From an uncultured Mucilaginibacter sp. (lineage in GTDB: Bacteria; Bacteroidota; Bacteroidia; Sphingobacteriales; Sphingobacteriaceae): a DNA stretch of 37,248 nucleotides. The stretch covers positions 1-37,248 of the forward strand of contig CAIPDP010000065.1 in the NCBI GenBank assembly GCA_903863845.1, given 5' to 3'. The notes below the pieces were generated by a model that saw nothing but the letters and a program-made list of their open reading frames with translations, was not told the origin of the DNA and made no database searches. The position numbers were made by a program, and so were the translations under genes. Below are positions 2,503-6,321 of the stretch, piece after piece (the first letter of the stretch is position 1; each line of letters starts with the position of its first letter).

Positions 2503-2532
2503 TTTGCCAATTCAAATTTCTTTATAAATTTG
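2503..2532 (+). promoter_or_regulatory. trp promoter (Bacteroidota -33/-7)
   Basis: TTTG at 2503-2506 and TAAATTTG at 2525-2532 are separated by 18 bases, matching the Bacteroidota primary sigma consensus TTTG-N19-TAnnTTTG almost perfectly. Transcription should start near 2537-2540, directly in front of the leader-peptide ATG at 2541. Confidence 0.7.
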
Positions 2533-2540
2533 TCACCGCG

Positions 2541-2606
2541 ATGATTAAAACTAACAAAAATAACAGCTGGTGGCTCCATAAAAATGGCAGCCGGTCGTGT
2601 TTTTGA
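2541..2606 (+). CDS. trpL: trp operon leader peptide (21 residues, Trp-Trp)
   Basis: A 21-codon reading frame starts 9 bases after the -7 box and ends in TGA at 2604-2606. Its core reads NNSWWLHKNG: two adjacent TGG codons lie at 2568-2573. Tryptophan is rare, so a Trp pair in a short frame just ahead of trpE is the hallmark of an attenuation leader. The Trp codons sit at the base of a hairpin (2572-2592) whose right half can pair instead with the terminator's left arm. A ribosome stalled on the Trp codons would free this segment; one that reaches the stop would cover it. There is no Shine-Dalgarno sequence and almost no 5' UTR if the promoter call is right. Confidence 0.8.
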   Translation: MIKTNKNNSWWLHKNGSRSCF

Positions 2607-2664
2607 TATGAACTACTAATCAATTGTAAACCTAATATGAACCCGGCGCCAACCACGCCGGGTT
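2572..2664 (+). promoter_or_regulatory. trp attenuator: three mutually exclusive hairpins
   Basis: Hairpin 1:2 is GGCTCCAT (2572-2579), loop AAAA, ATGG[C]AGCC (2584-2592), 8 pairs with one bulged C. Hairpin 2:3 (antiterminator) pairs TGGC[A]GCCGG (2585-2594) with CCGGCGCCA (2643-2651), 9 pairs with one bulged A. Hairpin 3:4 (terminator) pairs 2640-2648 with 2656-2664, 9 perfect pairs. Segment 2 is shared by the first two and segment 3 by the last two. Logic inferred: Trp starvation stalls the ribosome at 2568-2573, 2:3 forms and trpE is transcribed; with Trp plentiful the ribosome runs to 2606, covers segment 2, and 3:4 terminates transcription. Confidence 0.8.
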
Positions 2665-2670
2665 TTGTAT
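2640..2670 (+). terminator. trp attenuator terminator
   Basis: AACCCGGCG (2640-2648) and CGCCGGGTT (2656-2664) form a perfect 9-pair, GC-rich stem around the 7-base loop CCAACCA, followed by TTTTGTATTTT. It lies 25 bases before the trpE ATG, so it can only act as a regulated stop in front of the operon. Confidence 0.85.
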
Positions 2671-2694
2671 TTTAAATGCGCCTGTATAATTGAA

Positions 2695-4104
2695 ATGAAA
2701 AAGTATAAGATAAATACCACTTCCAAAAAATTGCTTGCAGATACCACCACACCGGTAAGCATCTATTTGCGTCTTCGCGATGTTTTCCCCAACTCGTTAT
2801 TGTTGGAAAGCTCTGATTACCATAGCCGCGAGAATAGCCTCAGCTATGTATGCTGCGACTCGATTGCCGGGCTTGTGCTTGACGAAGGCCGGCTAAAGTT
2901 ATCCTATCCCGATGGTACGGAGGCTGTGCGCGAACCGGGTACATTCGACCTGGTAAACGAGGTAAGCGCGTTTGTGCAGCAGTTTGATGCCGAGATAAGC
3001 CCAGGCAAGATCATCTCAAATGGCTTATTCGGCTATTTTACCCATGAAGCTATCGAGTATTTCGAGACCATCAAATTAAAAACTGTTGAGGATAACCCAC
3101 GCAAGATTCCAGTGATGCAATACCATATTTACCGGTATATCATCGCCATAGATCATTTTAAGAATGAGCTTTATATCTTCCAAAACCAACCCGAAGGCCA
3201 GGATGCCAACGGTGGCCTTCAAAAACTCGAATACCTGATCAAGAATAAAAACTTCCCCGAATATCATTTTAAAAGCAACGGCGAGGAGCAGTCAGACCTA
3301 ACAGGCGAGGAATTTATGGCGATGGTAAAGAAAATGAAACAGCACATTTTCAGGGGCGATGTATTCCAGATCGTACCATCAAGGCCATTCTCGAAGAAGT
3401 TTTTGGGTGATGAATTCAATGTGTACCGGGCATTACGTTCTATCAACCCATCGCCCTATTTATTTTATTTTGATTATGGAGATTTCAGAATATTCGGTTC
3501 TTCGCCCGAAGCGCAGATCACCATCAAAAATAAAATAGCCAGTATTTACCCCATTGCAGGAACCTTTAAGCGCAGTGGTGATGCGCTGAAAGATGCCGAG
3601 ATAGCCAGGCTATTGGAAAATGATCCCAAAGAATCTGCAGAACATGTAATGCTGGTCGACCTGGCGCGCAACGACCTTAGCCGGCATTGTGAGCAGGTGG
3701 AAGTAAGATCGTTCAAAGAAGTACAATATTACTCGCACCTGATCCACCTGGTATCACACGTGAGCGGCAAACTACTCGACAATACCTCTTCGTTCAAGAT
3801 CGTGGCGGATACCTTTCCGGCAGGCACCCTAAGTGGCGCCCCAAAATATCGGGCCATGCAGATCATCGACGAAAATGAAAAAACCAAACGCAGTTTTTAC
3901 AGTGGCGCAATCGGCTACCTGGGTTTTAACGGCGATTTTATACACGCCATCATGATCCGTTCGTTCCTGAGTAAAAATAACACGCTGTTTTACCAGGCCG
4001 GTGCAGGCATCGTAGCCGATTCGGACCCCGAAAGTGAGTTGAAAGAAGTAGACAACAAAATAGCCGCTTTAAGGAAAGCGATAGAATTGGCGGAGGAGTT
4101 GTGA
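2695..4104 (+). CDS. trpE: Anthranilate synthase component I
   Basis: 469 residues. TrpE converts chorismate and ammonia (from TrpG) to anthranilate, the first committed step of tryptophan synthesis, in the cytoplasm. The LLESSDY motif near residues 35-41 is the feedback tryptophan-binding site. The chorismate-binding domain shows SINPSPYLFYFDYGDFRIFG, PIAGTFKRS, LVDLARNDLSR, TFPAGTLSGAPKYRAMQIIDE in part, and a C-terminal GAIGYLGFNGDF segment, all normal for a catalytic enzyme. I chose ATG 2695, because an upstream TTG at 2665 lies inside the attenuator's T-run. Its transcription is probably set by the attenuator just upstream; trpG follows after a 94-base repeat-bearing gap. Confidence 0.96.
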   Translation: MKKYKINTTSKKLLADTTTPVSIYLRLRDVFPNSLLLESSDYHSRENSLSYVCCDSIAGLVLDEGRLKLSYPDGTEAVREPGTFDLVNEVSAFVQQFDAEISPGKIISNGLFGYFTHEAIEYFETIKLKTVEDNPRKIPVMQYHIYRYIIAIDHFKNELYIFQNQPEGQDANGGLQKLEYLIKNKNFPEYHFKSNGEEQSDLTGEEFMAMVKKMKQHIFRGDVFQIVPSRPFSKKFLGDEFNVYRALRSINPSPYLFYFDYGDFRIFGSSPEAQITIKNKIASIYPIAGTFKRSGDALKDAEIARLLENDPKESAEHVMLVDLARNDLSRHCEQVEVRSFKEVQYYSHLIHLVSHVSGKLLDNTSSFKIVADTFPAGTLSGAPKYRAMQIIDENEKTKRSFYSGAIGYLGFNGDFIHAIMIRSFLSKNNTLFYQAGAGIVADSDPESELKEVDNKIAALRKAIELAEEL

Positions 4105-4198: not shown

Positions 4199-4822
4199 AT
4201 GAGCAAGATATTAATTATAGATAATTACGATTCGTTCACGTATAACCTGGTGCACCTGGTGCATGAGATAGGTTTAACCTGTGATGTTTGGAGGAACGAT
4301 AAATTTGCGCTGGAGGAGGTAGATGCGTATAGCCATATCATTTTGTCGCCGGGCCCGGGTATACCATCTGAGGCTGGTTTACTTTTGGCGGTGATTGAAA
4401 GATACGCACCGACTAAAAGTATTTTCGGCGTATGTTTAGGGCAGCAGGCTATTGCCGAAGCTTTTGGCGGCAAATTGCATAACCTGAGCCGGCCGATGCA
4501 CGGTATTGCGACGCCTATTAAAATAACCGACAGGGATGAAAAGCTTTTTGCCGGTTTACCTGAAAGTTTTAAAGTTGGGCGTTACCATTCATGGGTAGTA
4601 GACCAGGACGGATTACCGGAAACGCTTACCGTTACAGCTATCGACGAGAAGGATAACAGCATCATGGCCCTGCGACACCAGCAATATGATGTACGCGGCG
4701 TACAGTTCCACCCGGAGTCGGTGCTAACCGAATATGGTCGTGCCATTTTACAAAATTGGCTAAACCCGCAAACAAATGGTGCAGAAAGACCAGCTGAAAG
4801 GTCGCATTTTGTTAAAATTTAA
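4199..4822 (+). CDS. trpG: Anthranilate synthase component II (glutamine amidotransferase)
   Basis: 207 residues, a class I glutamine amidotransferase that splits glutamine and passes ammonia to TrpE. The N-terminus MSKILIIDNYDSFTYNLVH is typical of TrpG/PabA. The oxyanion region LSPGPGIP (about 53-60), the nucleophile Cys in GVCLGQQAIAEAFGG (about 79-93) and the His-Glu pair in QFHPESVLTEYG (about 170-181) are all present, so it should be active. Start at ATG 4199 is preferred over GTG/TTG codons slightly upstream because it gives the canonical N-terminus. It could also serve p-aminobenzoate synthesis, as shared TrpG/PabA subunits do in some bacteria; the position after trpE favours anthranilate. 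Confidence 0.94.
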   Translation: MSKILIIDNYDSFTYNLVHLVHEIGLTCDVWRNDKFALEEVDAYSHIILSPGPGIPSEAGLLLAVIERYAPTKSIFGVCLGQQAIAEAFGGKLHNLSRPMHGIATPIKITDRDEKLFAGLPESFKVGRYHSWVVDQDGLPETLTVTAIDEKDNSIMALRHQQYDVRGVQFHPESVLTEYGRAILQNWLNPQTNGAERPAERSHFVKI

Positions 4823-4876: not shown

Positions 4877-5659
4877 ATGAGTATACTTGACACGATCGTA
4901 GCGCACAAAGTAAAAGAAATACAATCTGCAAAGAAAAACGTATCCTATACCAGCCTGGAGGAATCGGAATATTTTCATCGTGAGGTGCTTTCTTTCAAAG
5001 ATTTCCTGCTAGATCCATCTAAAACCGGCATCATTGCCGAATTTAAGCGCCGATCGCCTTCAAAAGGGATCATCAATGATAAAGTGTCGGTGGAGCAGGT
5101 AACTAACGGCTATGCAACAGCGGGTGCCTCGGCCCTATCAGTATTGACCGACCGGCAGTTTTTTATGGGCCGAAAGATTGACCTGGTAAGGGCCCGGCGA
5201 GCCAACAAAATTCCTATCCTGCGCAAGGATTTTATGATAGACGAATACCAGGTAATTGAAGCTAAAGCGCTTGGAGCCGATATCATCTTACTGATCGCCG
5301 CTATTTTGACACCAAAGCAGATCAACCAGTTAGCCTCATTGGCCAAGAGCCTCGGGCTGAATGTGCTGCTCGAAGTACATAACCTTGAAGAACTGGAACG
5401 CAGCATCGACCCTAATCTGGATGCCATCGGCGTAAACAACCGCAACCTGGCGGATTTTACTGTATCGGTCGAAACCTCTTACCAGTTGTCAGCACATATC
5501 CCACCCGAATTCCTGAAAATATCCGAAAGTGCCATCAGCGATCCTGAAACGATCAAACAATTGAAAAAAGCAGGCTTCAATGGTTTCCTGATCGGAGAGA
5601 ATTTTATGAAGCAGGCCGATCCGGGTGTGGCGATGATGGATTTTGTCAGGGAGTTATAA
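4877..5659 (+). CDS. trpC: Indole-3-glycerol phosphate synthase
   Basis: 260 residues, a TIM barrel that closes the indole ring of CdRP to give indole-3-glycerol phosphate. Visible motifs in order: IAEFKRRSPSKG (catalytic Lys, substrate phosphate region), ALSVLTDRQFFMG, PILRKDFMIDEYQV (catalytic Lys), GADIILLIA, LEVHNLEELE, GVNNRNLADF, KISESAISDPE and GFLIGENFM. Start at ATG 4877 (MSILDTIV) is preferred over 4856, which adds seven residues not expected in the family. It follows trpG by 54 bases. trpD, whose product acts between TrpE/G and TrpC, is not in the cluster, nor are trpF, trpB and trpA; they must lie elsewhere. Confidence 0.95.
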   Translation: MSILDTIVAHKVKEIQSAKKNVSYTSLEESEYFHREVLSFKDFLLDPSKTGIIAEFKRRSPSKGIINDKVSVEQVTNGYATAGASALSVLTDRQFFMGRKIDLVRARRANKIPILRKDFMIDEYQVIEAKALGADIILLIAAILTPKQINQLASLAKSLGLNVLLEVHNLEELERSIDPNLDAIGVNNRNLADFTVSVETSYQLSAHIPPEFLKISESAISDPETIKQLKKAGFNGFLIGENFMKQADPGVAMMDFVREL

Positions 5660-5700: not shown

Positions 5701-6000
5701 TTATCCCAATTTCAATTTAGCTGGATTCTGATAATTGTTCCAAATAGTTAAAAGGTCGATCATTTTATTATTGACGACCCGTTAGTAATCAGTAATTTGA
5801 GGAGTAATTACACAGCAGCGAATATTTAGTGATTCGTTATAAAAAGGAAAGGCTTCCGGATTAGAGGCAATTACCTTAAGATTGTCGTCGACTTTTCTAA
5901 TAAAATCAATTGCAACTTTATTGTTCCAACGAACAGCTAAATATTCCAAATTTCGCGCAAAGGTAGTTTCTGATTCTGGAGTCCAGTAAATAGCAATCAT
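5701..6000 (-). pseudogene. RelE/ParE family toxin broken by an in-frame stop
   Basis: From ATG at 5998-6000 the frame encodes 72 residues (IYWTPESETTFARNLEYL, a typical ParE N-terminus) and stops at TAA 5782-5784. Past that codon the same frame continues for 26 residues (RVVNNKMIDLLTIWNNYQNP, then AKLKLG) to a second TAA at 5701-5703. The tail is exactly what ParE proteins carry after the 'YYR' strand, and the total of about 99 residues is the normal family length. The stop therefore replaces one codon, most likely Tyr (TAT or TAC changed to TAA), and removes the last strand of the fold. The antitoxin gene overlaps its start by four bases. Probably an inactive toxin; a sequencing error is the other explanation. 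Confidence 0.8.
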
Positions 6001-6200
6001 TTATATTTATCAATAAATGATCGCAATACTTCATCATGAGGTTTTGTTAATCCATTTGCCGATTGCTGATAGCCGGTCAAAATCGATTTTTCGAACGCTT
6101 CCTGATCGTAAAAATGATATTTTATACCGGGCTTATACAGGAAAGCTTCAACGGCCAGAAGATCTTTATCCTGATCTATTTCGATGGTTACTTTCCGCAT
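5997..6200 (-). CDS. Probable antitoxin partner of the ParE-like toxin
   Basis: 67 residues from ATG 6198-6200 (MRKVTIEIDQDKDLLAVEAF). It ends ...KPHDEVLRSFIDKYK, and its TGA overlaps the toxin ATG as ATGA, the normal antitoxin-toxin coupling. The N-terminal strand 'KVTIEI' fits small Bacteroidota antitoxins, but no clear DNA-binding domain can be named from sequence alone. A longer reading from 6239 adds 13 residues without support. The reading frame is intact while the toxin is broken, as expected when a toxin is lost first. Confidence 0.7.
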   Translation of the reverse strand: MRKVTIEIDQDKDLLAVEAFLYKPGIKYHFYDQEAFEKSILTGYQQSANGLTKPHDEVLRSFIDKYK

Positions 6201-6321
6201 AATCAAATTTGATAATATAAACCGAAAATAAATAACCACTTAGCTTTCATTTTCAGAGGAATTCTTTAACCCTGTCCGGCAATGTCCGGCTTTACAAAGG
6301 ACACGTAAACGGACGGACGGA

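Follow-up and report, generated by a model that had tools for sequence, protein, structure and literature searches.

The trpE, trpG and trpC genes of an uncultured Mucilaginibacter, a genus placed in the Sphingobacteriaceae of the phylum Bacteroidota, are very probably controlled by a ribosome-mediated transcription attenuator that would adjust their transcription to how much charged tRNA-Trp is available. The parts of this element can be read in the sequence at positions 2541-2670 of the window (the whole 37,248-nucleotide stretch of DNA analysed), directly 5' of trpE-trpG-trpC. An earlier note on this DNA had proposed the same reading, which is now backed by conservation in relatives, by compensatory changes in the paired arms and by a conserved promoter box 5' of the leader. 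Taken together, the leader, its covariation and a reverse-strand control establish that the element is not a product of chance.

How would such an element work? RNA polymerase would start near position 2537, and a ribosome would load very close to the transcript's 5' end, on the AUG at 2541. When Trp-tRNA is scarce, the ribosome would stall at two adjacent Trp codons (2568-2573), covering the first of four RNA arms. Arm 2 would then be open for pairing with the emerging arm 3, no terminator would form and trpE would be transcribed. When Trp-tRNA is plentiful, the ribosome would reach the stop codon at 2604-2606 and cover arm 2; arms 3 and 4 would pair, and transcription would end at the T tract. 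If the leader is not translated, arms 1 and 2 would pair first and the terminator would follow.

The leader element and its surroundings

The leader ORF has 21 codons, from the ATG at 2541 to the TGA at 2604-2606, and encodes the peptide MIKTNKNNSWWLHKNGSRSCF, with TGG TGG (Trp-Trp) at 2568-2573. A leader of this length with adjacent Trp codons, together with three pairings that share arms, is what the earlier note had described, and the sequence agrees on the positions of all of these. Helix 1:2 pairs GGCTCCAT (2572-2579) with ATGGCAGCC (2584-2592), helix 2:3 pairs TGGC(A)GCCGG (2585-2594) with CCGGCGCCA (2643-2651), and helix 3:4 pairs AACCCGGCG (2640-2648) with CGCCGGGTT (2656-2664), followed by TTTTGTATTTT. 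The arms compete with one another. The hairpin and T-rich tract claimed for the terminator are both present; the tract, TTTTGTATTTT, is interrupted. Table 1 lists these features and their neighbours.

Table 1. Features of the trpEGC leader region and operon in the window. A1 is the alignment of Mucilaginibacter-type leaders described in the text.
Feature	Position	Strand	Evidence
Possible -33 element, TTTG	2503-2506	+	Sequence, 18 nt from the -7 box; consensus as given in PMC7366714
Sigma-A -7 box, TAAATTTG (TAnnTTTG)	2525-2532	+	Box in the 25 nt preceding the leader ATG, 79/81 loci
Leader ORF, MIKTNKNNSWWLHKNGSRSCF	2541-2606	+	WW/WWW/WxW ORF in the window and 80 named relatives (best 80 of >561)
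Tandem Trp codons (putative sensor)	2568-2573	+	TGGTGG invariant in 56/56 A1 rows
Arm 1	2572-2579	+	Covariation of helix 1:2
Arm 2, partner of arm 1 or arm 3	2584-2594	+	Covariation, cross-family swaps, folds
Conserved linker, ACTAATCAATTGTAAACCTAAT	2615-2636	+	AACCT at 2629-2633 invariant in 56/56 A1 rows
Arm 3	2640-2651	+	Helix 2:3 or helix 3:4
Arm 4 of the intrinsic terminator	2656-2664	+	Helix 3:4; 4/10 pairs changed on both sides
T-rich tract, TTTTGTATTTT, interrupted	2663-2673	+	Sequence
trpE, anthranilate synthase component I	2695-4104	+	NCBIfam TIGR00564 at 2e-123, 412.8 bits, below the curated cut-off of 517.7
trpG, anthranilate synthase component II	4199-4822	+	TIGR00566 over cut-off
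trpC, indole-3-glycerol phosphate synthase	4880-5659	+	NF001377 over cut-off

Among the relatives listed, the TrpE of an uncultured Mucilaginibacter metagenome-assembled genome is 94% identical to that of the window. The window's genome also encodes a distant second TrpE-like protein (L002, G000:C18:34231-35307), 33% identical and possibly PabB-like. Two small adjacent ORFs of 72 and 80 amino acids follow trpC on the minus strand (5782-6239). Their arrangement resembles that of a toxin-antitoxin pair; we rejected this reading after a Pfam search of the two ORFs gave no match.

Folding with and without a ribosome

Taken as single structures, helices 1:2, 2:3 and 3:4 have computed energies of -7.3, -12.9 and -16.5 kcal/mol. 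The 135-nucleotide leader is more stable than its dinucleotide shuffles (z -3.06; 1 of 200 was as good). The segment 2584-2675 by itself is ordinary by this measure (z -1.25; 23 of 200 were as good), and for this reason the main evidence for the element is comparative.

Ribosomes were modelled by removing the bases that they would cover, with an assumed footprint of 11 nucleotides beyond the A-site codon. With the ribosome stalled at Trp1 or Trp2 and the nascent RNA extending up to arm 3, helix 2:3 forms (-19.9 kcal/mol); with the ribosome at the stop codon, just the terminator 3:4 forms (-17.6 kcal/mol). Ribosome-free RNA ending at 2607 folds into a hairpin that spans arms 1 and 2 (-16.6 kcal/mol), and the ribosome-free whole leader forms this hairpin together with the terminator (-37.5 kcal/mol).

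In this model the switch appears on nascent RNA, where a stall gives helix 2:3; it is lost at Trp1 once arm 4 has been made. When the terminator is complete, helix 3:4 wins in the masking model for the Trp1 stall and not for the Trp2 stall, and it also wins in the segment 2584-2675 alone. Antitermination must therefore be partly kinetic. Moreover, the computed fold of ribosome-free RNA ending at 2655 pairs arm 2 with arm 3, which means that the state without translation needs helix 1:2 to have formed first. Both results would require the RNA to fold in the order in which it is transcribed.

In the window, the stop codon at 2604-2606 lies near enough to the end of arm 2 at 2594 that a terminating ribosome would cover this arm. 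Across 186 leaders, arm 2 ends at a median of 32 nucleotides and the stop codon at a median of 33 nucleotides past the last Trp codon; the difference between the two ends spans -28 to about 24 nucleotides, and the placement of the stop over arm 2 is less clear there.

Covariation among near relatives

A TrpE scan of named genomes gave more than 561 relatives, of which the best 80 were kept: 57 Mucilaginibacter-type loci (51 by title and 6 titled 'Bacteroidetes bacterium') and 23 others, which include Pedobacter, Daejeonella, Sphingobacterium, Paradesertivirga and Hufsiella. Each of these 80 best loci, like the window, carries a short ATG-to-stop ORF with WW, WWW or WxW 5' of trpE; WLW, WQW, WHW or WYW occurs in several Pedobacter leaders. 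Alignment A1 was built from the Mucilaginibacter-type leaders. It holds 56 distinct rows of 58 sequences and omits L029, which is identical to L024, and L016, whose terminator was not recognised.

The earlier note had made its reading depend on Trp codons and compensatory changes being conserved in related species, and both are. TGGTGG is invariant in all 56 rows. In helix 1:2, 97.8% of cells are paired, as against 86.8% in shuffles, and both sides have changed in six of the nine pairs (slid controls 12-50%). Helix 3:4 is 95.7% paired, as against 93.6% in shuffles, with both sides changed in four of ten pairs (slid controls 28-56%). Helix 2:3 is nearly invariant in Mucilaginibacter: it is 74.6% paired, which 106 of 500 shuffles matched, and both sides have changed in one pair (slid controls 18-43%), although its covariation score was equalled by just 2 of 500 shuffles. 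Covariation of the arms, the check suggested by the earlier note, is accordingly strong in 1:2 and present in 3:4. Within the genus it is of little information for 2:3, and cross-family swaps were used for this helix instead.

The leader codons themselves are only weakly coding-like, with entropies of 0.50, 1.15 and 1.34 at the three positions of codons 2-9, a point against the attenuator reading.

Between the leader stop and the terminator, the linker at 2615-2636 is strongly conserved and apparently unpaired. Pedobacter and Daejeonella carry sequences that look similar by eye. An extended antiterminator rod (A1 columns 69-82 with 97-110) was considered as an explanation for this linker; it is 82.5% paired, but it was rejected: none of its pairs shows a two-sided change, and it does no better than shuffles.

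Arm 2 and the terminator across families

Does arm 2 fit its own terminator in more distant relatives? A script found a T-ended terminator hairpin in 186 of 198 leaders, compared with 4 of 198 when the downstream sequence was shuffled. The same script also reports a hairpin for 64 of 198 reverse strands because hairpins look alike on both strands.

For the swap test each genus label was represented by a single leader (n = 80); 26 of these are from Sphingobacteriaceae, mostly single named loci. When the partner is the 5' arm of the terminator plus its loop, native arm 2 pairs better than in cross-family swaps (mean z -1.22 and -1.48) and better than shuffles (mean z -1.91), where differences in composition between families could inflate the swap values. 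Many single cases fail: 29 and 32 of 80 leaders reach z < -1.64 against swaps, and 44 of 80 against shuffles. When the partner is extended to the whole hairpin, the mean z is -1.02 and -1.37. When one leader per family was taken (16 families), none of 5000 permutations equalled the native pairing of arm 2 with the terminator, a result to which differing compositions may also contribute.

The strength of this match varies among families. In Sphingobacteriaceae, native pairing with the whole hairpin is only weakly favoured over swaps (mean z -0.58 and -0.86, n = 26). Family f17 and much of f4 are weak with the 5' arm and loop; f17 turns negative with the whole hairpin (-1.49 and -3.09). In one f4 leader, L138, arm 2 (GTCGTGA) appears by eye to complement the loop and arm 4 of its terminator. 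The predicted helices 1:2, 2:3 and 3:4 are mutually exclusive, the last of them being an intrinsic terminator, and helix 2:3 is supported across families.

Occurrence across the phylum

TrpE matched at E<=1e-60 in 326 of 392 genomes of the phylum. From the matches listed we took 124 regions outside Mucilaginibacter, some of which may share species with the named loci; 20 listed places were left out, 19 by choice and one at a contig end. In 117 of the 124, an ATG-initiated ORF that is 8-45 codons long and contains WW, WWW or WxW lies upstream, compared with 2 of 124 on the reverse strand. In a second sample, from the same class (63 of 197 class genomes matched at E<=1e-100; G529, G490 and G608 were left out at contig ends), 26 of 30 regions have a leader and none has one on the reverse strand. 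One additional leader in this class, L251, has a GTG start as judged by eye and stands beside the 26. In a sample from other classes, where 30 of 40 genomes were examined, a leader is present in 14 of 30 and again in none on the reverse strand.

The total is 157 leaders in 184 trpE upstream regions against 2 in 184 on the reverse strand, in phylum samples that both favour TrpE resembling the query, and at least one leader was found in 40 of 49 anonymous families. The upstream sequence of L246 and L263 is short. A WWW leader at L284, where the TrpE match begins at residue 104, is outside the 157. The earlier note had implied that elements of this kind are rare outside Proteobacteria. That does not agree with these counts, which come from a sample that leans toward query-like TrpE.

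Some of the misses have a pattern. In four f11 and f12 misses among the 124, RF01692 matches lie further upstream. At L314 (f12) and L315 (f11), a Trp leader precedes what looks by eye like a trpB-like ORF, which lies between the leader and trpE. In family f18, which belongs to the sample from other classes, no Trp leader was seen 5' of TrpE in any of 11 genomes (L278, L281, L283, L286, L290-L293, L295, L297 and L299), an apparent loss or absence.

These data bear on a rival explanation: a plain intrinsic terminator that lowers trpE transcription constitutively, beside a short ORF that arose by chance and whose Trp codons are inert. The unremarkable stability of 2584-2675 alone and the rank of 3:4 as the most stable helix would suit it. 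Yet a Trp-codon leader stands before trpE in all 80 of the best named loci and in 157 of 184 regions of the wider sample, and helix 1:2, which would be useless to a bare terminator, covaries. We regard this explanation as very improbable.

A second possibility is that the leader RNA or its peptide acts mainly in trans, with control of trpE secondary. What speaks for this is precedent only, namely what is reported for peTrpL of Sinorhizobium (PMC7298713), and a terminated leader would be released as a small RNA. But the residues past the Trp codons vary, which is ill-suited to a conserved peptide function, and the stop lies anywhere from 27 to 51 nucleotides past the Trp codons across the 56 Mucilaginibacter-type leaders; the end of the peptide is not fixed. 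A chiefly trans-acting role is therefore highly unlikely, and attenuation in cis remains our reading of the element.

A promoter box close to the leader start codon

Of 87 Sphingobacteriaceae leaders, 84 have TAnnTTTG in the 40 nucleotides that precede their ATG, compared with 3 of 117 for a control stretch further upstream. In 82 of the 87 it lies 5-10 nucleotides before the ATG. The commonest spacing is 8 nucleotides in Mucilaginibacter-type leaders (45 of the 57 that have a box) and 6 nucleotides in the remaining leaders (17 of 27). The same loci contain 434 ORFs with 150 amino acids or more, which are not mutually independent; 21 of them have the box 3-10 nucleotides before their first ATG. 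Counting against the attenuator reading, 7 of 81 loci have a TAnnTTTG downstream of the Trp codons and upstream of trpE. The earlier note had recognised that transcripts starting after 2606 would speak against an attenuator; the sequence points instead to a start upstream, given the conserved box just 5' of the leader.

In Flavobacterium psychrophilum this box is positioned at -12 to -5 (PMC9723704). Transferring that position to the window gives a predicted start near 2537, with the AUG at +5. The predicted 5' UTR is about 4 nucleotides long, and the predicted spacing between start and AUG is kept in Sphingobacteriaceae. In the two Bacteroidota that have been studied, such transcripts form a small minority: leaderless mRNAs make up 5.5% in F. 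psychrophilum (PMC9723704), and 5' UTRs shorter than 10 nucleotides about 3.7% in Bacteroides thetaiotaomicron (PMC7366714). This box spacing is not phylum-wide: the box is missing in 15 of 15 f24 leaders, and many f4 spacings are 16-18 nucleotides.

Other probable attenuators in the same genome

The trpD gene lies on a separate contig behind a leader of its own, MKNALNNIWWWPNE, which comes with a terminator and an antiterminator duplex (L318 1348-1500, G000:C18). Upstream of trpD, a WW or WWW leader is present in 30 of 30 regions examined, that of this genome included, of 60 genomes of the genus with trpD. The exact TAnnTTTG box is absent from 28 of 30 trpD leaders. Judged by its sequence, the trpD leader, with WWW, is a second Trp attenuator in the window's genome; it has no match to RF01692 or RF00513 at E<=1.

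Leaders for other amino acids occur in this genome as well. A Phe/Tyr-rich leader MKFNSAYFYGYYFYFNSKSRD precedes pheA (L301, G000:C197), and a leader with eight Thr codons, MIIKSTITTTTTTTGNIPGGR, precedes an aspartokinase gene (L303, G000:C73); each has a terminator and a matching arm 2. The leader of hisG, MNGYRLHHLHLHHRHQAIR, has six His codons (L300, G000:C15). No convincing terminator was found between it and hisG, which suggests that the His element may work differently. No ilv leader was seen before ilvB or a presumed ilvD ORF of this genome.

Relation to known systems

The element resembles enterobacterial trpL (RF00513) in its tandem Trp codons, its shared-arm 1:2, 2:3 and 3:4 helices and its terminator before trpE. 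The leader of E. coli trpL is longer and includes a Shine-Dalgarno sequence, whereas the predicted 5' UTR of the window leader, about 4 nucleotides, has no room for one. Comparison with the Rfam Trp_leader model (RF00513) gave no match, either at the gathering score in the window or at E<=10 within the leader.

The earlier note had asked whether such an element is in a published catalogue for Bacteroidota. As a kind it is: Weinberg et al. 2010 (PMC2864571) is the source of RF01692, Bacteroid-trp ('Bacteroidete tryptophan peptide leader RNA'), and a Bacteroid-Trp RNA has been noted before the trp operon of F. psychrophilum (PMC6414381). Like the window element, Bacteroid-trp is a Trp leader peptide 5' of trp genes in Bacteroidota. 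RF01692 (cut-off 49 bits) has no gathering-score match in the window, and a search of the leader at E<=10 did not list it. It does match trpE leaders of family f4, such as L138 (73.9 bits), the one match in 20 loci scanned together. The L138 leader has WWW, in contrast to the WW of the window leader, and its arm 2 by eye fits the loop and arm 4. In a phylum search with strict filters, and 8 candidates scored per genome listed, RF01692 is over its cut-off in 41 of 392 genomes, and the window's genome is not among them. Because this model fails on the window leader, we file the element as a diverged relative of the known kind, outside RF01692.

The same Rfam searches leave hardly any credit to the idea that another RNA device (a T-box, a TRAP-type element or a riboswitch) senses Trp and the ORF is incidental: we found no point in its support, no Rfam family reaches its gathering score anywhere in the window, T-box, RF00513 and RF01692 are absent from the leader matches at E<=10, and the sole amino-acid leader listed is RF00506 Thr_leader, at 19.2 of the 55 bits needed (E 0.16).

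Leader-peptide attenuators have been proposed before amino-acid operons in F. psychrophilum, of the same phylum and another family, where pheA and hisG elements are named (PMC9723704). In the passages of these accounts that were consulted (PMC9723704, PMC6414381), no Sphingobacteriaceae form was seen. Our literature search found nothing closer than Bacteroid-trp; a 2010 survey of attenuation in bacteria (Lopatovskaya et al., Mol Biol 44:128, cited in PMC4833913) was outside its scope, and we do not claim absence from print. The kind is already in print for Bacteroidota, and the window element is a diverged form of it, not a member of RF01692.

Implications

We lean modestly toward a broader proposal with two parts taken jointly. 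First, the Sphingobacteriaceae trpE attenuator would run on near-leaderless translation, with the AUG about 1-6 nucleotides from the 5' end and no room for a ribosome-binding site, the ribosome loading as the RNA emerges. Second, the trp genes of Mucilaginibacter would be split into trpEGC and trpD units, each with its own Trp attenuator, one sensing through WW and the other through WWW. A leader start codon with a predicted position so close to the 5' end of its mRNA would offer a natural test of transcription-translation coupling. As for the phylum, classical trp attenuation, the textbook mechanism of enterobacteria, appears to be the usual arrangement 5' of trpE in the Bacteroidota sampled (157 of 184).
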